Source: Syntrophobacterales bacterium
Lineage (GTDB): Bacteria > Desulfobacterota > Syntrophia > Syntrophales > UBA2192
Direction of reading: 5' to 3'
Assembly: GCA_018053845.1 (NCBI GenBank)
Contig: JAGPKU010000015.1
Coordinates: forward strand, 1 to 44,284
DNA: 44,284 nucleotides
Each line of letters begins with the position of its first letter. Position 1 is the stretch's first letter. Positions 29,239-44,284 of the stretch are shown here, in pieces. The notes beneath the pieces were generated by a model. The model saw nothing but the letters and a program-made list of their open reading frames with translations. It did not search any database and was not told the origin of the DNA. Position numbers and translations under genes: made by a program.

Positions 29239-29967
29239 TTACCTGCGGTAATCGGCCGAGCGGAACCGGATCCCCAGATCCACGCTCGAGTCCTGGATCC
29301 AGGACGGCAGCGGCGGGAAGGGGTCGGACTTCCGGATCGCCCGGTAGGCCGACTGGTCGAAGTAGCTGTTCCCCGAGCGCTTCTCGAACCGGATCTCCGT
29401 CACCTGGCCGCTGCGCAGCACCCGCACGTCGAGGACGGCCTCGAGGTTCTTGTCCGCCAGGATGCTCTGCGGCAGGGCCCAGTTCTGCCGCACCCGGGAC
29501 CAGATCTGCGCGTAGTACTGGCTCATCAGCGAGGCCGCGCTGCCCTGCCCCGAGAAGGGCTGGCCGCCGGCATCGGCGGCGTCGGCCCTCTTCCGCATCT
29601 CCTCGATGGCCTGGTTGAGCCGGGCCGCGTCCTGCTTCTGGGCCGGCGCATCCTGCTTGAGCAGCGGCGTGGGTGTTTTCGTGACGATGCTCTTCTTGAG
29701 AACGATCGCGTTGTCCCGCACGCTCTCCCGGAAGGCCTCGCTCATGACCTCCCTCGAGAGGGCCGCCGTGGGGCTCCTGGCCGGGCCGGCCGGGGCGCTC
29801 ACGAGGTCCACGGAGTAGGCGGGCCCGAAGGTCCACGTGCGCGACGGGAAGGCCGGCGAGAAGAAGAGCACGGAGAGGGCGATGGCGTGGATGAGCAGCG
29901 ACAGCGCGACGGCCGCATTCAGGCTCGACGGGCCGTCGGGTCGCCACCGGAGGATTTTCGCAGTCAT
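29239..29967 (-). CDS. tolA: TolA-like energy transducer (TonB/TolA C-terminal family)
   Basis: A 242-residue protein. The ATG at 29967 overlaps the tolR stop by four bases. One N-terminal membrane anchor (about 16-38, SLNAAVALSLLIHAIALSVLFF), a short periplasmic segment with Lys/Gln/Ala stretches (KKSIVTKTPTPLLKQDAPAQK, RLNQAIEEMRKRADAAD), then the C-terminal TonB/TolA domain from about 150 (SQYYAQIWSRVRQNWALP, VLRSGQVTEIRFEKRSGN, FPPLPSW). It is shorter than E. coli TolA (421 residues) because the long helical domain II is reduced. It transmits proton-motive energy from TolQR to TolB and Pal. Its place in the operon makes TolA the best name. Confidence 0.9.
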   Translation of the reverse strand: MTAKILRWRPDGPSSLNAAVALSLLIHAIALSVLFFSPAFPSRTWTFGPAYSVDLVSAPAGPARSPTAALSREVMSEAFRESVRDNAIVLKKSIVTKTPTPLLKQDAPAQKQDAARLNQAIEEMRKRADAADAGGQPFSGQGSAASLMSQYYAQIWSRVRQNWALPQSILADKNLEAVLDVRVLRSGQVTEIRFEKRSGNSYFDQSAYRAIRKSDPFPPLPSWIQDSSVDLGIRFRSADYRR

Positions 29968-30389
29968 CTCGAATCCCTGGGCGGTTCCGTGATCATGCCG
30001 AGCTTGTCGATCCCGGCTTTCCGGACCTCGGACATGACCTGGACGACGAACCCGTACGGGACCTCCTTGTCCGCCCGCATGAAGAGCTCCCGGTCCGTCC
30101 TGGCCTTGAAGATGCTCTCGAGCTTCGCGCTCAGGTCGGGAAGCGTCGTCTTGAACTCGTTGATGTAGATCTCCTGCTTGCCGTTGATCGTGAGCACGAG
30201 CTTCTCCTCGCTCACGTTGATGCTCTTGGCCTTCACGCGCGGCAGGTTGACGTCGATCCCCATCTGAAGCATGGGCGCCGTGACCATGAAGATGATGAGC
30301 AGCACGAGCATCACGTCCACCAGGGGGGTGACGTTGATCTCGGAGAGGGGCTTGTTGCCGTTGTCTGTTCTTCGTCTGAAGCGGGCCAT
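29964..30389 (-). CDS. tolR: TolR (ExbD/TolR family)
   Basis: A 141-residue protein. One N-terminal membrane helix (about 18-41, INVTPLVDVMLVLLIIFMVTAPML) carries the essential proton-channel Asp in PLVDVMLVL. The rest is a periplasmic domain ending PPRDSR. With TolQ it forms the inner-membrane motor of the Tol system. It starts 3 nt after tolQ stops and its stop overlaps the tolA start, so the three are translationally tight. Confidence 0.95.
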   Translation of the reverse strand: MARFRRRTDNGNKPLSEINVTPLVDVMLVLLIIFMVTAPMLQMGIDVNLPRVKAKSINVSEEKLVLTINGKQEIYINEFKTTLPDLSAKLESIFKARTDRELFMRADKEVPYGFVVQVMSEVRKAGIDKLGMITEPPRDSR

Positions 30390-30392
30390 GGG

Positions 30393-31136
30393 CTATTTGT
30401 GCAGGTAGTGCCTCTCGACGATGTTGAGAAACTCGGAGGCGAAATTGTCCATCTCCAGGGAGATGTTCCGGATGCGGTTCAGGTAGTAGTTGTAGAATAC
30501 CACCGCCGGGATGGCCGCGGCAAGGCCGAAGGCGGTGGCGACGAGGGCCTCGGAGATCCCGGGCGCCACCACGGCCAGGGTGGCCGACCCGCGGGCGCCG
30601 ATGCCGCGGAAGGCGTTCATGATGCCCCACACGGTGCCGAACAGGCCGATGAAGGGGCAGGCGCTGCCCGTCGTGGCCAGGAACCCCAGCAGGCTCTCGA
30701 GCTTGGAGGTCTCGGTCCCGCAGGCCCGGTGGAGGGCCCGCTCCACGTTGTCGAGCCCCCGCATCTCGATGCCCGGCCCGTCCAGGAGGTCCGCCGGGGT
30801 CCCCCTGGAGGAGGTGCGGCTGATCTTGCCCAGCTCGAGGTAGCCGGCCCGGAAGACCTCGGCGATGGTGGAGTGGGGGTACCGCTTCGACTCGGGCAGC
30901 ACGTCGGAGAGCTTGCTCGAGTTCATGTAGGCGTCGAGAAACTGGTTGTTCTCCTTCTCCGTCTTCGAGAGGACCCGGTACTTCATCAGGATGACGGCCC
31001 AGGAAATGATGGAGAAGACGAGCAGCAGAAGCAGGACGAACTGCACCATCGGTCCCGCGTCGACGACCATCTGGAGGAGATTCCCCCGGAATTCCCCCCC
31101 GAAGTCAACGGCGGATACCGCAAAGAGAGTTCCCAT
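30393..31136 (-). CDS. tolQ: TolQ (MotA/TolQ/ExbB proton channel family)
   Basis: A 247-residue protein. The ATG at 31136 has GGAGG upstream; the open frame continues to 31274 without support. Three membrane segments: about 27-50 (FVLLLLLVFSIISWAVILMKY), about 150-172 and 190-220. The conserved core is present: ERALHRACGTETSKLESLLGFLATTGSACPFIGLFGTVWGIMNAF and GISEALVATAFGLAAAIPAV. It is the first gene of the tolQRAB-pal-cpoB operon and the proton channel that powers TolA. Confidence 0.96.
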   Translation of the reverse strand: MGTLFAVSAVDFGGEFRGNLLQMVVDAGPMVQFVLLLLLVFSIISWAVILMKYRVLSKTEKENNQFLDAYMNSSKLSDVLPESKRYPHSTIAEVFRAGYLELGKISRTSSRGTPADLLDGPGIEMRGLDNVERALHRACGTETSKLESLLGFLATTGSACPFIGLFGTVWGIMNAFRGIGARGSATLAVVAPGISEALVATAFGLAAAIPAVVFYNYYLNRIRNISLEMDNFASEFLNIVERHYLHK

Positions 31137-31476
31137 GACGACCTCCGGGTCCGACCGGGCCGGCCCCCAAATGCGAGGAGACGATGGAGCGAGACCTCGC
31201 ATCCATCGCCTTGGGGCAGCGACCCTGACAATGTAAAGTGGCCTATACGTAATGGATATGGCCCCCGATGTCAACCCTTTTCCGGGCAGGACCGGGCCCG
31301 GGGTTCAGGGGACAGGGGATGAAACAACAGAAAGGAAATCCCCCTCTGTCCCCCTTTTGAAAGGGGGTTTTGAATTTCAGTTTCGGGGCGAAACAGACCC
31401 ATCGGGCGCCGGCCTCGGGGAGGAGCGCCTCCTTCGCGGGCTCGGCGCCTTTTCGGCGGCCGTCTGTATGGATTTC
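31137..31476. other. divergent region upstream of tolQ
   Basis: On the minus strand TTGACA at 31274-31269 is a candidate -35 for tolQ, but the nearest TATA-like -10 (TATAGG at 31247-31242) is 21 bp away, so the promoter call is weak. The CCCCCTTT/AAAGGGGG hairpin lies at 31350-31367 and a GC-rich dyad near 31405-31455. No gene seen. Confidence 0.5.
31336..31367. repeat. CCCCCTC-family hairpin
   Basis: AAATCCCCCTC (31336-31346) is followed by CCCCCTTT (31350-31357) that pairs with AAAGGGGG (31360-31367). The first block is the same as the outer arm of the hairpin at 29069, whose partner arm is absent here. Confidence 0.7.
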
Positions 31477-36574: not shown

Positions 36575-36627
36575 GCACCCTCTTCCTCTGATCCCGGCGC
36601 CCGGTGCCTGAACATCGGAGATTCTCA

Positions 36628-38700
36628 ATGGCGAAGGAGCTGTTTCTCGAGATCGGGACGGAGGAGATCCCCGCGGCCTTCCTGCCGAAGGCGATCGCGG
36701 ACATGGAGGAGATGATCCGGAAGGAATTCGCCGCGAACCGGATCCGGCACGGCGCGGTGAAGGCCATGGCCACCCCCCGCAGGCTCGCGCTGTGCGTGGC
36801 CGGCGTCGCCGAGCGGCAGGAGGACCAACTCATCGAGAAGCTCGGGCCCGCCAAGAAGGTCGCCTACGACGAGCAGGGCAACCCCACGAAGGCGGCCCTC
36901 GGCTTCGCGAAGGGACAGGGCATCGACATCTCGGAGGTCGAGATCATCTCGACGGACAAGGGCGAGTACATCGGCTCGCGCAAGAAGCTCGAAGGCGGGC
37001 TGACGGCCGAGCTGCTCCCGACGCTGCTTCCCCGGTTCATCCTCTCGATCCCCTTCAAGAAGTCCATGCGCTGGATGAACCTCGAGATCCGCTTCGCCCG
37101 TCCCATCCACTGGATCGTGGCCCTCTTCGGCGGCGAGGTGATCCCCTTCAAGATCGAGAACATCGCAAGCGGCGACACCTCCCGCGGGCACCGATTCATG
37201 AGCCCCCGGCCCTTCAGGGTGAAGGGATTCAAGGACTACCTCGCCAAGACGCGCAGGCGCTTCGTGCTCGTCGACCCCGAGGAGCGGCGCCGGATCCTCC
37301 TCGAGGAGGCCCGGAAGGCCGCGGCGTCCGCAGGGGGAAAGATCCTCGAAAACGAGGACCTCATCGGCGAGGTCTCCTTCCTCGTCGAGTACCCCTCGGC
37401 GGTGCTGGGCAACTTCGAGCCGGACTACCTGAAGCTCCCCAAGGACGTCCTGACCACGACGATGATCTCGCACCAGAAGTACTTCCCCGTCGTCGACGCC
37501 TCGGGCGGCCTCATGGCCCACTTCGTGACGATCAACAACACCGTGGCGAAGGACCCCTCCGTCGTGGCCCGCGGCAACGAGAAGGTGATCCGGGCGCGCC
37601 TGGCCGACGCGAAGTTCTTCTTCGAGGAGGACCAGAAGACCCCCCTGATGACGCACTTCGAGGCGCTGAGGAAGGTCGTCTTCCACTCGGCCCTCGGCAC
37701 ATCGTATGACAAGGTCATGCAGTTCCGGGAGCTGGCGGCCTGGATCGCCGACAGGGTCAACCCGGCCCTGAAGGACACGGTGGACCGGACGGCGCTTCTC
37801 GCCAAGGCCGACCTGGAGACGAAGATGGTCTACGAGTTCCCCGAGCTCCAGGGGACGATGGGGCGCGAGTACGCCCTGATCCAGGGGGAAAACCCCGTGG
37901 TCGCGCAGGCCGTCTACGAGCACTACCTGCCCACGTCGGGCGGCGGCGACCTGCCGCGGACCGAGGAAGGCGCCATCGTCAGCATCGCCGACAAGACGGA
38001 CACGATCGTGGGCTTCTTCGGGATCAACGTGATCCCCACGGGCACGGCCGACCCCTACGCCCTGCGCCGGCAGGCCCTGGGCATCATCAACATCATCCTC
38101 GACAAGGGCTGGCCCATCGATCTGCCCGAACTCATCGACCGCAGCCTCGCCATCCTCGCGAAGAAGCTCAAGCGACCGGCCGAGGAGACGAAGCGCGACG
38201 TCCTGGAATTCTTCAAGGGCCGCTTCTCCAACCAGCTCGTCTCCCAGGGGCGCCCCTACGACGTCGTGGAGGCCGTGCTGGCCACGGGTCTCACGGACCT
38301 CGTGCAGGCGATCAACAAGATCGAGGCCGTCGAGGCCACCAAGGGCGACCCCGACTTCGAGCCCCTGGCCGTGGCCTTCAAGCGGGTCAGCAACATCCTC
38401 AAGGACTTCAGGGACGGCCGCGTCGATGCCGCGCTCTTCGAGAACGAGGCCGAGGGGGCCCTCTACAGCGCCTACACCGAAATCCGGAAGAAGGCCGAGG
38501 CCCTCATCGAGGCCGGCGACTACCGGGAGGCCCTGCTCGAGATGGTCCGCCTGCGCAAGCCCGTGGACGACTTCTTCGAGGCCGTCCTCGTCATGGCCAA
38601 GGACGAGCGGGTGAGGTTCAACCGCCTCTCGCTGCTCGAGGCCGTGGCGAAGCTCTTCCACCGGGTGGCGGACTTCTCGAAGATCGTGACGGAAAAGTAA
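36628..38700 (+). CDS. glyS: glycyl-tRNA synthetase, beta subunit
   Basis: A 690-residue protein. The ATG at 36628 opens with AKELFLEIGTEEIPAAFLPKA, the standard GlyS N terminus; an in-frame GTG at 36604 is less likely. Internal landmarks: FARPIHWIVALFGG, LVEYPSAVLGNFEPDYL, VLTTTMISHQKYFPV, RLADAKFFFEEDQKTPL, and the C-terminal anticodon-binding-type helical region (RKPVDDFFEAVLVM). It is the tRNA-recognition subunit of the alpha2-beta2 glycyl-tRNA synthetase. The stop is immediately followed by a period-7 array. Confidence 0.98.
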   Translation: MAKELFLEIGTEEIPAAFLPKAIADMEEMIRKEFAANRIRHGAVKAMATPRRLALCVAGVAERQEDQLIEKLGPAKKVAYDEQGNPTKAALGFAKGQGIDISEVEIISTDKGEYIGSRKKLEGGLTAELLPTLLPRFILSIPFKKSMRWMNLEIRFARPIHWIVALFGGEVIPFKIENIASGDTSRGHRFMSPRPFRVKGFKDYLAKTRRRFVLVDPEERRRILLEEARKAAASAGGKILENEDLIGEVSFLVEYPSAVLGNFEPDYLKLPKDVLTTTMISHQKYFPVVDASGGLMAHFVTINNTVAKDPSVVARGNEKVIRARLADAKFFFEEDQKTPLMTHFEALRKVVFHSALGTSYDKVMQFRELAAWIADRVNPALKDTVDRTALLAKADLETKMVYEFPELQGTMGREYALIQGENPVVAQAVYEHYLPTSGGGDLPRTEEGAIVSIADKTDTIVGFFGINVIPTGTADPYALRRQALGIINIILDKGWPIDLPELIDRSLAILAKKLKRPAEETKRDVLEFFKGRFSNQLVSQGRPYDVVEAVLATGLTDLVQAINKIEAVEATKGDPDFEPLAVAFKRVSNILKDFRDGRVDAALFENEAEGALYSAYTEIRKKAEALIEAGDYREALLEMVRLRKPVDDFFEAVLVMAKDERVRFNRLSLLEAVAKLFHRVADFSKIVTEK

Positions 38701-39132: not shown

Positions 39133-40920
39133 CTAGGACCCGCCGCACCGAAAGAGCGCCACCGGGCGGGATTCGAACCAGGCCTTCAGCCTCTCCATGT
39201 CGATCCTCCGCTCCTGCCGGATGCGATATCCGCTGTCACCGATACGGGACAAGAGCTCCCGCGTGAGATCGTTGCGGACGAACAGCACGGTGACCCAGGG
39301 ATCCGTCGTGAGGATGAGAATGTCGTAGTCGCGCACCACATCTACGGGATGACCCACCTGGTTGTACTCCCGGCCGAGGTTCGGAGCGAAATGGAAGGCC
39401 CGCTCCGGGTCGTCCTCGAACCGAAGACGGTCCGGGGCCTTCGCTTTCTCGAAGGTTCGGTACCAGAACACCTCGGGCCGCTCGCGCAGAAGGATTTCCG
39501 GGTTGACCCGGATCCGGGCGCCTCGCAAAAAGAGATCGCTATGGGCGATCGCCGGGTTCACGTACCCCCAGAGGTCCACGATCTCCCGGTCGTTCATGTA
39601 CCCGAAGGCGTTGAGTTCCGTCGTGGCCACCCGCCACGAGGCGGGCAGGATCCGGTCGACGATCTGCCCGCCCGCCGTGTACGGCGGTGCGGGCTCACCG
39701 GACAGGCGGGACTGGTCGCTGAGCAGCGCCGCAACCCCGAGCGCCGGAACGACGGCCAGGCACAGCGAGGCGCGGAGCGCCGTCCGCAGGCCCCACCCGG
39801 CGGGAACCGAGTGCCGCGCCACCCCGAGGGGAATTCCCCGGCGGTCGAGGAAGAGCAGGGCGAAAACCGCGAGCATCAGCTCGAAGCCGACATAGTACCG
39901 CCCGTCCCCGATCGGGTTGTAGGCCGTGGCCGTGTAGAACACGAAGAGGCCGACCATCATCAGAAAATGCCACCGGATCTTCTTCTCGTCGAAGCCGCGG
40001 ACGAAAAGGGCGTAGGCGACGACCAGCGCAAAGACGGCCTGCTGGGGCTTCGCGAAGAACAGTCCCATCAACCACAGTTCCTTGGTGCCCAGGAGCGGCA
40101 TCAGGCAGAGCCGAAAGGACTTGAAGACGATGGGGTTCGGCACCCAGACCCCGTAAAAGACACGGCACAGGCCGCCGTAGAGCAGCAGGGCGCCCAGCGC
40201 CGCGGCGATCTGCCGCATCGGCACGACCCGGTCGTGTGCCCAGGACACGAGAAAGACCGACGCGCTGTACAGGATCGCATCCGGCCGGATGAGCGGCATG
40301 ACGGCTGCAGCCCACAGGGCCCGGTCCCTCCGCCCTTCCAGGTGGCAGCACAGGCTGTAGAAGAACACGAGCGACAGGAGGCCGCCGCCGAATCCGTTGG
40401 AGAAGATCTTCACGAGCGAGGGGTTTGCGGCGAACAGCAGCAGCAAAGCAAGCCGCAAGCGGTAATCCCGTCCCGTCAGGCACCGGTCCATCAGCACCAG
40501 GTGCATGCCCCCGATCACGAGCCCCAGCGCGAAATCCGCGTAGAGCAGCGACAGGCGGCTGAACCCGAAGGGCGCCAGCAGGAGGTAGTAGGCGAATTCG
40601 ACGGTCCCGGCGACCGGACGGACCGGACTGAACGAAAACAGGCCGTGATGGTGGAGGTTGTAGGCGTGCTCGAGATTGACGAACACCTCGTCGAGGTAGA
40701 ACCGGGTCGCGATGTAGGTCCCCAGGTAGGCGACGCCCGCGACGGCCAGGGCAAGCCGGTTTCTCGGCACTTCGCCGAGGCGCCCCCCCGACGCCAGGAG
40801 GCAAGACGCCGGGATCGTCGAGAACAGCAGGATCAGGGCACCGACCTTCCAGGACGGGAACCACTCCGGGTAAAGCAGCAGGGACAGCGGCGGACCCGCG
40901 TATTCATACCAGTAGAGCAT
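39133..40920 (-). CDS. multi-pass membrane protein, GT-C-type glycosyltransferase-like
   Basis: A 595-residue protein. About ten hydrophobic helices occupy residues 10-420, followed by a soluble C-terminal domain of about 170 residues (NAFGYMNDREIVDLWGYVNP...). In the first extracytoplasmic loop, after a membrane helix, comes TRFYLDEVFVNLEHAYNLHHHGLFSFSP (72-99): an acidic D-E pair followed by an aromatic/asparagine pattern and a Gly-Leu-x-F turn, the layout of GT-C enzymes that use polyprenyl-phosphate sugars, and similar to the arabinofuranosyltransferase AftB type. The donor and acceptor are unknown. The family call is by motif pattern only. It is the last gene of the glycan locus, 18 nt after the epimerase gene. 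Confidence 0.8.
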   Translation of the reverse strand: MLYWYEYAGPPLSLLLYPEWFPSWKVGALILLFSTIPASCLLASGGRLGEVPRNRLALAVAGVAYLGTYIATRFYLDEVFVNLEHAYNLHHHGLFSFSPVRPVAGTVEFAYYLLLAPFGFSRLSLLYADFALGLVIGGMHLVLMDRCLTGRDYRLRLALLLLFAANPSLVKIFSNGFGGGLLSLVFFYSLCCHLEGRRDRALWAAAVMPLIRPDAILYSASVFLVSWAHDRVVPMRQIAAALGALLLYGGLCRVFYGVWVPNPIVFKSFRLCLMPLLGTKELWLMGLFFAKPQQAVFALVVAYALFVRGFDEKKIRWHFLMMVGLFVFYTATAYNPIGDGRYYVGFELMLAVFALLFLDRRGIPLGVARHSVPAGWGLRTALRASLCLAVVPALGVAALLSDQSRLSGEPAPPYTAGGQIVDRILPASWRVATTELNAFGYMNDREIVDLWGYVNPAIAHSDLFLRGARIRVNPEILLRERPEVFWYRTFEKAKAPDRLRFEDDPERAFHFAPNLGREYNQVGHPVDVVRDYDILILTTDPWVTVLFVRNDLTRELLSRIGDSGYRIRQERRIDMERLKAWFESRPVALFRCGGS

Positions 40921-40938
40921 GCAGCCGCTGCCTCCCCA

Positions 40939-41967
40939 TCACGATACGCCGCGCAGCAGGCGGAGAATCCCCTGCCTGAGCCATGTCCGGTGCGTCGTGC
41001 CGATCTGCCGGCGCGCGGTATCCAGATTGGCGACGTACCAGTCGTATGACGCCGAAAGGGCATCGGCGTTGCTGAGGCGCGGGTGCCAGTCCAGCAGCGC
41101 CCGCGCCTTGTCGACGTCGAAAAAGAAATCCTTGTGATACGTGTAATAGTGCCAATCGGCCAGCGGCGACAGGCGCAGCGCGTCCAGGCCCCTCAGCAGG
41201 GGCACCGCCAGCGCGGCCGGCACCGACCGGATCCGCGAAGGGGACCCCGCATGCGTGATGAGCGCCTGCAGATCCTCGCGGAGCGTCCCGAAGCGGTCCG
41301 TCCCGATGTGGAAGATCTCGTTCGACGTCCTCTCGGTCATCCGGATGCAGGCATCGGCCAGTTCCGAGACCTCGACGAACTGGATCCGGTTCGCGCCGGG
41401 CCCGATGATGTAGAGGGTCTTTCCGGCCCGAATCCAGTCGAACAGGATCGAGAAGATTCCCAGGCGGCCGGGACCGACGACCGTGCGCGGGCGGACGATG
41501 GAAATGTCCAGCCCCCTTCGCCGGTAGTCGAGGCACAGGGATTCGCCGTCGGCCTTGGACCGGGCGTAGAGGCCGATCGGGTCCAGCGGGGCGGTCTCGT
41601 CGAGAGGACTGGGCCGCCGGACCCCCAGGACGGCGGACGAGGACATGTGGAGGACTTTCCGAACCCCGTGCCGCATGGCCCCGTCCAGGACGTTCCGCGT
41701 TCCGCCGACGTTGACGTCCCAGAATGCACGGCCCGCTTTCGAGATGGGGACGAGGGCCGCGATGTGAAAGATCCTCCGGACCCCCCGGCAGGCCTCGATC
41801 ACGCGATCCCGGTCCCGGACATCGGCCCGGACGAATTCCCATCGCCCCTGCGGCGGTTCGCCGGCCGGGGCCGCAAGATCGACGATGCGAACGGCCTCGC
41901 CGCGCGCCAGCAACTGCCTCGCGATGTGGATGCCGATAAACCCGGCCCCTCCCGTGATCAGATTCAT
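40939..41967 (-). CDS. NAD(P)-dependent epimerase/dehydratase (extended SDR)
   Basis: A 342-residue protein. Rossmann motif GGAGFIG (6-12), an acidic D at the end of strand 2 (VDLAAP), and the catalytic YARSK (Tyr and Lys of the YxxxK pair) after SSSAVLG. It is an extended short-chain dehydrogenase of the sugar-nucleotide epimerase or sterol-dehydrogenase-like group; residues around RPRTVVGPGRLGIF fit the latter. The substrate is probably a nucleotide- or lipid-linked sugar, given the locus. An AGGAG site lies rather far (13 nt) before the ATG. Confidence 0.9.
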   Translation of the reverse strand: MNLITGGAGFIGIHIARQLLARGEAVRIVDLAAPAGEPPQGRWEFVRADVRDRDRVIEACRGVRRIFHIAALVPISKAGRAFWDVNVGGTRNVLDGAMRHGVRKVLHMSSSAVLGVRRPSPLDETAPLDPIGLYARSKADGESLCLDYRRRGLDISIVRPRTVVGPGRLGIFSILFDWIRAGKTLYIIGPGANRIQFVEVSELADACIRMTERTSNEIFHIGTDRFGTLREDLQALITHAGSPSRIRSVPAALAVPLLRGLDALRLSPLADWHYYTYHKDFFFDVDKARALLDWHPRLSNADALSASYDWYVANLDTARRQIGTTHRTWLRQGILRLLRGVS

Positions 41968-42033
41968 GGGGCTTTCCGATCTCCTGAGACGTTCACACCG
42001 GCCGCGTCGACGGCTCGTGTCCCTTCCCCTCCC

Positions 42034-42939
42034 TCACCGGTAGATGATCAACGATGACGAAAGGGCCCAGAGGATGACGCTGACGAGCAGCGGGACGTCC
42101 GTCAGGATGACCTCCGCGGGCGAGTCACCGAGCTTTCGGACATAAAGCAGATAGTAATACCGCAGGAGGCCGTAGAGCACGAAGATGGAAGAAACCAGCA
42201 GGCCCTTGGTCCCGAACTTCGCATAGGCGTAATCCGAAACGGTGTAGAGCATGTAGGAGATGATCACACCCGTCGCGGTGAGGATGAGAAGGCTGTCGAG
42301 GAAGGGCGCGTTGTACTCGTCGAGCACTCTTCGCTTCTGTGACGGTTCCCCGCTCTGCGCGGTGAGCAGCTCCGCCCGGCGCTTCCCGAATCCGAGGAAG
42401 AGGGTCAGAAAGATCGCGGCCACATAGACCCACTCGGACGTCTCGGCCCGGACGAGGACGATCCCCGCGAGGATCCGCAGGAAAAACCCCAGTGCGATGA
42501 CGAAGACATCGATGATGACCACGTGCTTGAGCCAGGACGAGTAGGCGATGTTGATCAGGATGTAGACGCACAGGACGATGCCGAATTCCCGGGACAGGAA
42601 GAATCCCAGGAGAACACAGGGAGAGGCAACGGCGGCCGCGGCGGCAAGGGCCCTGGAGGCCGAGAGTTTCCCCGCCGGGATGGGGCGGTGCCGCTTGACG
42701 GGGTTGCGGCTGTCGGCGGCTCGGTCCAGTACGTCATTCAGGATGTAGACGCTGCCGGACACCAGGCAAAACAGAAAGAACCCGGCAAGGAGGTCCAGGT
42801 TGGCCTGGAGCGCCATGAGCTTCTTGCTGAAGATCAGAGGGGCAAAGATGAAGCCGTTCTTCACCCAATGATGGGGCCGCATGGAGACGACCACATGGGA
42901 GACGACGCCGTTCGACAGGGTCAGCGTGCGGGGGATCAT
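42034..42939 (-). CDS. decaprenyl-phosphate phosphoribosyltransferase-like UbiA-family prenyltransferase
   Basis: A 301-residue protein whose ATG at 42939 overlaps the stop of the upstream epimerase by four bases. About eight membrane helices. The signature RPHHWVKN (21-28), NDVLDRAAD (68-76; the NDxxDxxxD metal site) and NPVKRHRPIPAGKLS are those of DPPR synthase (mycobacterial Rv3806c/UbiA), which joins PRPP to polyprenyl phosphate. The second acidic motif region is IDVFVIALGFFLR. The product would be a polyprenyl-phospho-5-phosphoribose, a donor precursor for ribose or arabinofuranose units. The assignment is firm for the family, less so for the exact prenyl chain. Confidence 0.92.
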   Translation of the reverse strand: MIPRTLTLSNGVVSHVVVSMRPHHWVKNGFIFAPLIFSKKLMALQANLDLLAGFFLFCLVSGSVYILNDVLDRAADSRNPVKRHRPIPAGKLSASRALAAAAAVASPCVLLGFFLSREFGIVLCVYILINIAYSSWLKHVVIIDVFVIALGFFLRILAGIVLVRAETSEWVYVAAIFLTLFLGFGKRRAELLTAQSGEPSQKRRVLDEYNAPFLDSLLILTATGVIISYMLYTVSDYAYAKFGTKGLLVSSIFVLYGLLRYYYLLYVRKLGDSPAEVILTDVPLLVSVILWALSSSLIIYR

Positions 42940-43955
42940 TCCAACAGTCCCTTGCTTCTGCACCATGCAATGGATCGCCGCATCCCCTCCCGCAGTTCGA
43001 TCGTGGGCGCGTATCCCAACTCGGCCCGCGCCTTGTCTACGCGGCAGGCGATGTTCTTGTTCATCTCGCCGGCGACATGGATATTCATCTCGTAGAGGCC
43101 CACCGACTGCAGGCGCTTGTCGGTCCACCCGCACAAATCGGATAGCGCCCCGGGAACGAACCGCGGCTTCAGGCTGACTCCCAACAGGTCGGCGACGGTC
43201 TCGTAGATCTCCAGCATGGAGTAGGGCCGACGGTCGGCGATCCAGTACAGGTTCCCCGCCGCCTTCTCCGACCGTGCGGCCAGGATGAGGGCTTGGCACG
43301 TGTTGTCCACGTAGGACATGGAGCGGAGGTTCTGCCCGCTGCCGAACACGATGGGCTTCCCGCTGCCGATCATCTTGAAGAAACGGGTCTGGCGCGCCGG
43401 CTGGCAGGGACCATAGAACCAGCAGGGCCGCAGGATGACCGTCTCGATCCGCCCCGCGTCATGGAATGCCCGCACCTCCAGTTCCGCGTAATACTTGCTC
43501 AGACCGTAATGCATGTAGGGACGGTAGGGCGACTCCTCCGTGAACGGCTCGTGGGCGGAGGGATTCAGGCCCGCCGGCGAGTTGGAGCTCACGTAGACGA
43601 ACCGCCGCACGCCGCAGTCCGCGGCGGCGTGCAGCAGGTGCCGCGTCCCCCGGGTGTTGATGTCGTAGACGCGCCGGACATGGAAGATCGGCGGATGGAT
43701 GATTCCCGCGATGTGGAAAAGCACGTCCATCCCTTCACAGACCCGGTGCAGGGCGTTTTGGGTGATGTCGGCCCGGGCGATCTCGATCCTCGGCGAGAGT
43801 TCCTCGATTTCGCGGGTCTCCGCCCCGGGCTCCACGACACAACGGATGCGGTCCCACGGCAGGGCGGGGCCCTGCCCTTCCTCGAAGCCGTGAACGAGGA
43901 TCTCCAGAAAACGGGTTCCCAGCCAGCCCGGGACGCCGGTGACGAGCACGTTCAT
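42936..43955 (-). CDS. NAD(P)-dependent epimerase/dehydratase (extended SDR)
   Basis: A 339-residue protein. The ATG at 43955 has AAGGAG upstream; the frame to 43994 is discarded. Cofactor site TGVPGWLG (6-13) with a GxxGxxG spacing; catalytic SSNS then HYGLSKYYAELEV, giving the YxxxK pair. The later FYGPCQPARQTRFFKMIGSG and SYVDNTCQALILA are typical of sugar-nucleotide epimerase or 3-beta-hydroxysterol-like SDRs. It is translationally coupled to the DPPR-synthase-like gene (4-bp overlap). The two SDRs of this locus are not close copies of each other. Confidence 0.92.
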   Translation of the reverse strand: MNVLVTGVPGWLGTRFLEILVHGFEEGQGPALPWDRIRCVVEPGAETREIEELSPRIEIARADITQNALHRVCEGMDVLFHIAGIIHPPIFHVRRVYDINTRGTRHLLHAAADCGVRRFVYVSSNSPAGLNPSAHEPFTEESPYRPYMHYGLSKYYAELEVRAFHDAGRIETVILRPCWFYGPCQPARQTRFFKMIGSGKPIVFGSGQNLRSMSYVDNTCQALILAARSEKAAGNLYWIADRRPYSMLEIYETVADLLGVSLKPRFVPGALSDLCGWTDKRLQSVGLYEMNIHVAGEMNKNIACRVDKARAELGYAPTIELREGMRRSIAWCRSKGLLE

Positions 43956-44085
43956 GCAGAACTCCTTGCCTGTTTTCCCTGCATCATCTCGCAAGTTCCG
44001 TGCCTTGCCGGAACGGCATGAAGGCTTCCATCCAACCTCTCTTTGCGACCCCGCTTCCCTCGGTCGCCGGTCCGTCCGCCCGCCG

Positions 44086-44283
44086 TCAGTGGTGCCGTCT
44101 GCCCGCGTACTCGATGATCGAGATGATCACGGTGATCAGGAAGGCCTGGCCCACCAGCAGGATGCTGTCGATCGTGCGGGCGTTGCGCAGGGCGATGGCG
44201 CTGATCCCCAGGGTGGCGGACAGGGTGTAGATGAAGAGGACGACCCTGCGCTTGTCCCCGAGCAGCTCGTGGAGCCGGTGATG
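44086..44283 (-). CDS. C-terminal fragment of a WecA/MraY-type polyprenyl-phosphate sugar-1-phosphate transferase
   Basis: The gene enters from the right edge and stops at a TGA (44086-44088); 65 residues are seen. The fragment begins HHRLHELLG, the conserved H-H-R segment that forms the nucleotide-sugar site in WecA/WbpL/MraY proteins, followed by two hydrophobic helices (VVLFIYTLSATLGISAIAL and SILLVGQAFLITVIISIIEYAG). Such enzymes start a lipid-linked glycan by moving a HexNAc-1-phosphate to undecaprenyl phosphate. It is upstream of the epimerase on the same strand with a gap of 130 bp. Confidence 0.72.
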   Translation of the reverse strand, partial: HHRLHELLGDKRRVVLFIYTLSATLGISAIALRNARTIDSILLVGQAFLITVIISIIEYAGRRHH

Positions 44284-44284
44284 C

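Follow-up and report, generated by a model that had tools for sequence, protein, structure and literature searches.

Can a bacterium that lacks DprE1 epimerise a lipid-linked pentofuranose with short-chain dehydrogenases/reductases (SDRs) instead? The question is raised by one end of contig JAGPKU010000015.1 from Syntrophobacterales bacterium assembly GCA_018053845.1, analyzed here at its full length of 44,284 nucleotides (hereafter the window; contig C7 of a 2.65 Mb genome in 162 contigs, G000). An earlier note, made from the sequence alone, had described at this locus a DPPR-synthase homologue, a GT-C-like protein, two extended SDRs and a WecA-like initiator, had remarked on the lack of DprE1 in the window, and had suggested a ribofuranose- or arabinofuranose-containing surface glycan. 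All of these features are present on the minus strand, the initiator as its C-terminal end only, and the protein families, the gene linkage and the absence of DprE1 are established by sequence or fold. In our assessment, the locus probably makes and uses a polyprenyl-phosphate pentofuranose, epimerised to the xylo or arabino form, for a surface glycan. The genes in question are:

39133..40920, minus strand: putative AftB-like GT-C glycosyltransferase, 595 amino acids, with a C-terminal non-membrane domain (profile, model, fold)
40939..41967, minus strand: SDR2, extended SDR of the NAD type and candidate epimerase of a lipid-linked pentofuranose (PF01370, 133.2 bits; motifs; linkage to the synthase)
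42034..42939, minus strand: predicted UbiA-family polyprenyl-phosphate phosphoribosyltransferase (DPPR synthase/PPPRS), no HAD domain (NF008977; PDB 8j8j; motifs)
42936..43955, minus strand: SDR1, extended SDR (PF01370, 108.5 bits; YxxxK present; co-occurs with SDR2)
44086..44284, minus strand: WecA-like polyprenyl-phosphate sugar-1-phosphate transferase, C-terminal end only (199 bases), the gene being cut by the contig end (translation)

A pathway of this kind, comprising a phosphoribose synthase, an SDR epimerase, a flippase and a GT-C, was published in 2024 for Gram-negative bacteria (PMC11127046). According to the main text of that paper, to which all statements on this system below refer, the UbiA synthase makes polyprenyl-P-phosphoribose, a phosphatase domain removes the phosphate, and transfer of the sugar by the GT-C takes place outside the cytoplasm. 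DprE1/E2 homologues are linked there to arabinofuranose.

The phosphoribose synthase and the GT-C protein

Judging from its sequence, the window UbiA protein is a member of the polyprenyl-phosphate phosphoribosyltransferase family, as the earlier note had read it: it scores 254.9 bits against NF008977, above the curated cut-off of 234, and its residues 11-292 align to the solved Mycobacterium tuberculosis Rv3806c (8j8j) with E 2.3e-29. In the 8j8j alignment, complemented by a motif check, NDxxDxxxD appears as NDVLDRAAD and KRxxE lies within GKRRAE, and these correspond to the positions of catalytic residues studied in PMC11127046, including the R..E of loop IV. Neither a fused phosphatase domain nor a DxDGT motif is present in this protein. 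Synthases above the NF008977 cut-off were detected in three of the seven genomes of the genus and in 36 of the 395 genomes of the phylum sample.

As a single query, the window GT-C protein finds nothing significant by sequence in Pfam, NCBIfam or the PDB, and it does not match the AftB equivalog model NF041481 (cut-off 1050 bits) at E <= 0.001; its counterpart in genome G005 gives weak AftB matches (NF041481, E 1.4e-4; 9dlf, E 0.0046). Relatives were collected with a three-sequence profile, resulting in a 17-member alignment in which G176, R212, K267 and D449 are invariant and D77, the first residue of the D-E acidic pair (D77-E78) pointed out in the earlier note, is nearly so. The profile of this family matches AftB with E 3.5e-29, and 13 of the 17 relatives match NF041481 (best E 3.6e-13), the equivalog cut-off not being reached by the window protein. 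A 15-member profile lacking the proteins of the window and of G004, a genome of the same genus, finds the window GT-C with 86 bits (E 7e-25, Z=5000), and still with 76.9 bits when the G005 protein is also removed, whereas none of 200 shuffled controls was reported; some circularity persists in this comparison because the window GT-C was part of the profile with which the relatives were gathered.

A structural model built from two sequences (mean predicted local distance difference test score, pLDDT, 34) was discarded, and the protein was remodelled with the 17 relatives, resulting in an AlphaFold model with a mean pLDDT of 71.8 and a predicted template-modelling score (pTM) of 0.75. Foldseek retrieved ALG12 (1e-7), AftB (2.0e-6 and 9e-6) and further GT-C proteins with this model; in VIA-align 2, ALG12 was again the top match (Z 23.8), and AftB aligned across 419 residues with Z 18.0. 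Given the profile match to AftB and the GT-C fold of the model, the window membrane protein is therefore identified as a GT-C of an AftB-like sequence family, whatever its donor, and not as a member of an unrelated family.

The two SDRs and the predicted product

The lack of DprE1 extends from the window to the whole genome, in which no ALO match was found and the best match to DprE1 reaches 23 bits, compared with 1046 in the positive genome G433. SDR2 has the TGxxGxxG and YxxxK motifs, the latter being found in all 43 SDR sequences, and the NAD-type Asp is present in 24 of 24 strong SDR2 sequences. A C-terminal tail, basic and then hydrophobic, which is found in the window SDR2 and in most of its relatives, could anchor the protein at the membrane.

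We surveyed 79 synthase loci, namely a first set of 39 (with L007 and L039 being fragments of one metagenome-assembled genome, MAG) and a further 40 that consist of 36 places above the cut-off other than that of the window (a split hit in G413 was left out) and four below it, three of which have long, HAD-fused frames; the loci of the window, G004 and G005 stand outside this survey. SDR2 (at least 300 bits) adjoins the synthase in L029 and L041 and DprE1 (at least 300 bits) is near it in 14 loci, the two occurring together in none of the 79. SDR2 is found beside the synthase in G004, G005 and MAGs of Syntrophomonadaceae and Peregrinibacteria. The search of 345 phylum genomes for SDR2 gave eight matches at E <= 1e-60, and among the five best genomes the synthase is adjacent in that of the window and in G312, where SDR2, a HAD phosphatase (PF12710) and the synthase form a run.

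Among 72,556 plasmid records, 19 matches to SDR2 were obtained at E <= 1e-25. At 35% identity or above, a synthase lies no more than about 13 kb from SDR2 on the plasmid in 14 of 15 cases (12 in the examined stretch, one across the record start and one at a distance of about 12 kb, beyond an insertion), the exception being AR07, with no synthase in the examined stretch. Three of the four weaker matches were examined; two are without a synthase and one has a synthase together with a DprE1-like gene. Four of the 15 records are haloarchaeal (L152, L153, L154, L159) and two actinobacterial. The three annotated haloarchaeal cassettes encode an LPG-synthase-TM protein, a PHP protein, the synthase, SDR2 and a GT-C of the DolP-mannose mannosyltransferase type (PF15971 was checked in one cassette), and the first four of these gene types recur in L029 and, by profile, in L159. 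Altogether, SDR2 relatives are found near the phosphoribose synthase in the phylum of the window, Firmicutes, candidate phyla, actinobacteria and haloarchaea, a distribution that fits the suggestion of the earlier note that SDRs replace DprE1.

This distribution bears on an alternative in which the lipid donor stays ribofuranose while SDR1 and SDR2, as mere neighbors of the synthase, make an NDP (nucleoside diphosphate)-hexose for the same glycan. Family models for NDP-sugar and hopanoid enzymes match both SDRs, every one below its cut-off, and the glycan cluster of G004 includes DegT and PIG-L genes; nevertheless, this alternative appears improbable given that SDR2 relatives lie near the phosphoribose synthase in very different clusters, including those of haloarchaea and streptomycetes, and that SDR1 and the clade of SDR2 to which the window protein belongs (clade B, see below) share the same nine plasmid records.

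By analogy with PMC11127046, SDR2 would be the epimerase of the window locus. In the narrower form of this prediction, SDR2 is a C3 epimerase like ORF13 of Citrobacter youngae O2 and the product is xylofuranose (Xylf), which we consider quite possible albeit short of probable: in the published system, a single SDR is enough for Xylf, with ORF13 alone deciding Xylf rather than ribofuranose (Ribf), and both the TGxxGxxG and YxxxK motifs of SDR2 and the SDR2-HAD-synthase run in G312 are in line with such a role, but the likeness of SDR2 to ORF13 was read from motifs, and the second SDR is left without an explanation.

SDR1 lacks the Asp after beta-2 in 11 of 11 sequences and may be of the NADP type, the cofactor preference of both SDRs being read from this single position. 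In a FastTree phylogeny of 43 SDRs, the SDR2 proteins of the window and G004 group with those of rhizobia and of G451 and G278 (clade B, support 0.958, with weak inner support and one long branch, G351, joining), and the other group includes SDR2 of G005, G312, L029, L041, haloarchaea, actinobacteria and G267. An SDR1-type gene is located on the same stretch or plasmid as the clade B members, except G351; none was found near the other SDR2 group in the stretches searched. Nine plasmid records contain SDR1 at 44.9% identity or above (the next match is at 27.6%), and these are exactly the rhizobial records that carry SDR2; in eight of them, the synthase adjoins SDR1. Among 390 phylum genomes, SDR1 scores at least 490 bits in four (G278, G451, the window genome and G511), followed by 221 bits, and all four have a synthase match, that of G511 being below the cut-off. 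The gene order in G511 is HAD-synthase, hypothetical protein, GMC oxidoreductase, SDR1, SDR2 (299 bits) and SMR. Because the rhizobial records are closely related, the SDR1/SDR2 pairs represent about four lineages rather than thirteen.

Two further gene arrangements were observed around such pairs. In G451 and G278 (L142 5445-10526; L143 1187-7016), SDR1, a GMC oxidoreductase and an LPG-TM gene run opposite to SDR2, on a stretch without a synthase. On pNGR234a of strain NGR234 (L157, 7845-15910), near nodSU, a HAD-phosphoribose synthase, SDR1, a large hypothetical membrane protein, SDR2, an SMR gene and a GMC oxidoreductase are encoded, a gene set that is repeated in L158 and L180 and to which the records assign no pathway. 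For the NGR234 genes, under the locus names y4nG, y4nJ, y4nL and y4nM, the literature gave nothing relevant.

With two SDRs, it is possible that SDR2 oxidizes and SDR1 reduces as a pair of steps. Under this scenario, SDR2 would oxidize C2 with NAD and SDR1 would reduce it with NADPH, replacing DprE1/DprE2 and yielding arabinofuranose for the AftB-like transferase. The NAD-type Asp (24 of 24 SDR2 sequences, 0 of 11 SDR1 sequences), the absence of DprE1 from the genome and the resemblance of the transferase to the arabinofuranosyltransferase AftB are all compatible with it; given that the cofactor assignment rests on one position, that the published GT-C takes more than one pentose donor (PMC11127046) and that many SDR2 loci are without SDR1, we find this version rather doubtful.

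The two-SDR version looks like an undescribed branch of the known pathway; in the literature searched, PMC11127046 alone was on point, and its supplement, which covers more loci, may show the arrangement. It is also conceivable, although unlikely, that SDR1 and SDR2, joined by the GMC flavoenzyme in rhizobia and G511, constitute a separate branch of lipid-linked pentofuranose chemistry that inverts both C2 and C3 (or alters the sugar in some other way) and yields a product that is neither ribo, xylo nor arabino, for example, lyxofuranose. According to PMC11127046, lyxofuranose is present in no solved carbohydrate structure, and the literature on lyxofuranose with epimerase or polysaccharide gave nothing relevant among the matches listed.

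The surrounding cluster and the proposed mechanism

Two further features of the window delimit or characterize the locus:

36604..38700, plus strand: glyS, convergent neighbor that bounds the cluster and lies outside the system (identical boundary in G004)
29967-31274: ExbB and ExbD, consistent with a Gram-negative envelope, as the earlier note had assumed

The start codon of the synthase gene and the stop codon of SDR1 overlap as ATGA, and 18 bases separate SDR2 from the GT-C gene. Because the window edge is the contig end, the region past the right edge was inspected in G004 (five contigs), where the five genes stand in identical order ahead of glyS. The WecA-like fragment of the window is 93% identical to the G004 gene at the DNA level; the full-length G004 protein matches PF00953 with 122.8 bits and the WecA model TIGR02380 with 120 bits, the cut-off of 326 not being reached. 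Upstream of the five genes, G004 encodes glycosyltransferases, methyltransferases, AsnB, a PHP-type protein, WbqC, PIG-L and DegT (reading frames in this high-GC DNA were picked by codon-position GC; PHP, WbqC, PIG-L and DegT were named by Pfam and the others by reading the translations). From these gene annotations, this region is a predicted surface-glycan cluster with the five genes at its end, and parts of this upstream region are also present on contigs C123 and C109 of the window genome. The neighborhood is conserved in relatives, if patchily so (synthase in three of seven genomes of the genus, GT-C of the window type in two of 149 relatives), and the surface-glycan context proposed in the earlier note stands, but arabinofuranose is not the default product because the published Gram-negative system has an SDR making xylofuranose. 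The observation made in that note is confirmed and its interpretation partly supported.

We infer the substrates, the product sugar, the acceptor and the direction of the redox step as follows. In the cytoplasm, the UbiA enzyme would use phosphoribosyl pyrophosphate (PRPP) to load 5-phosphoribose onto undecaprenyl phosphate, and a 5'-phosphatase encoded elsewhere would convert the product to lipid-P-ribofuranose. SDR2, probably with SDR1, would then epimerise the lipid-linked sugar at C2 or C3 to give arabino- or xylofuranose, replacing DprE1/DprE2. A flippase would move the lipid-linked sugar across the membrane, and the AftB-like GT-C would attach the pentofuranose to the glycan that the neighboring cluster produces.

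The family assignments of the UbiA and GT-C proteins, the linkage of SDR2 to the synthase, the absence of surveyed loci with both SDR2 and DprE1 and the published precedent of ORF13 speak for this mechanism. Several observations weigh against it. Neither a 5'-phosphatase nor a flippase was identified in the window or in the G004 cluster, and the phosphatase gene hoped for beyond the right edge did not emerge among the neighboring genes; the phosphatase may be of another type, as the HAD protein of G312 has no homologue in the genomes of the window, G004 or G005. No gene of the window cluster is left over to encode a flippase, but the contig ends there. A point in favor of the mechanism is that the GT-C family (E <= 1e-8) was detected in nine genomes of a 297-genome sample and that eight of these have a synthase above the cut-off (the exception is G214), but five of the nine belong to one family, so this co-occurrence does not amount to nine independent events, and outside the window genome the two genes are on separate contigs in these genomes. 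Fisher and hypergeometric values, which take no account of relatedness, are given no weight here. The type of GT-C varies among SDR2 loci. The SDR2/SDR1 pair of G451 and G278 lies on another contig than the synthase, and in G267 an SDR2 relative (399 bits) is present without any synthase match at E <= 0.001.

Candidates for the two remaining steps come from other loci. The small PHP gene that adjoins the synthase in L029 and in haloarchaea is a candidate 5'-phosphatase, and a better one than the G004 PHP protein, for which this role is not claimed because of its signal-like N-terminus and weak PHP match. Similarly, the haloarchaeal LPG-TM protein is a candidate flippase; in G005, GtrA adjoins the synthase, and other loci have SMR or LPG-TM genes.

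Some synthase loci show other associations. A DUF362 gene directly adjoins the synthase homologue in 11 of the 79 loci (L007, L008, L009, L012, L013, L018, L026, L092, L095, L108 and L111), frequently with no glycan genes around it, which may point to a second function for these UbiA proteins. In the Anaerolineae MAGs L010 (5713-8350) and L016 (772-3449), the same two genes come after the synthase homologue; their translations read like a GHMP kinase and a protein of the amino-acid-kinase type, which would suit a tie of this synthase to isoprenoid supply. A phage-labelled contig from human faeces (L151, 898-5419) contains consecutive genes for a synthase, a HAD phosphatase, SMR, an SDR and a large membrane protein, an arrangement that resembles a serotype-conversion module. 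Finally, a Neorhizobium plasmid (L186, 5737-10011) encodes a HAD-synthase, a DprE1-like FAD oxidase and SMR, together with an SDR that represents a third type and resembles that of the L151 phage.

Comparison with known systems

Given that the SDR2 family is found near the phosphoribose synthase across several bacterial phyla and haloarchaea, vaguely annotated 'epimerases' gain a concrete, testable substrate, and a variant of the mycobacterial arabinan-donor pathway that relies on SDRs gains a broad basis. The paired SDR1/SDR2 subtype, common to an uncultured Gram-negative bacterium and to nodulation plasmids, points to a pentofuranose donor route not described in the main text of PMC11127046, in which GMC enzymes are not mentioned and archaea appear solely in a reference title.

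The window locus shares with the mycobacterial decaprenyl-phosphate arabinose (DPA) pathway (Rv3806c, Rv3807c, DprE1/DprE2, AftB) the Rv3806c homologue and the AftB-like GT-C, but it has two extended SDRs in a genome without DprE1, and no phosphatase or flippase gene was identified at the locus. The NGR234 cassette near nodSU and the G511 run, which are close to each other in gene set, also combine the synthase, SDR1 and clade B SDR2; in contrast to the window locus, their synthase is fused to HAD and accompanied by a GMC oxidoreductase, an SMR gene and a small hypothetical protein, whereas no GMC homologue was found in the genomes of the window and G004, no SMR gene was seen at either locus, and SMR and LPG-TM profiles found nothing in the G004 stretch. 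The rhizobial noeCNHOP operon, for arabinosylation of Nod factors, is a different precedent, as reported in PMC5080398. The three-component system of C. youngae O1/O2 (PMC11127046) resembles the window locus in having a UbiA synthase, a GT-C and an SDR gene that adjoin a surface-polysaccharide cluster, and SDR2 has the auxiliary-SDR motifs of that system (TGxxGxxG, YxxxK). The window locus differs from it in that the synthase is without a fused HAD phosphatase, there are two SDRs, no SMR/MATE-type flippase gene is seen, and the GT-C, the putative counterpart of ORF12 (GT136), is AftB-like by profile.

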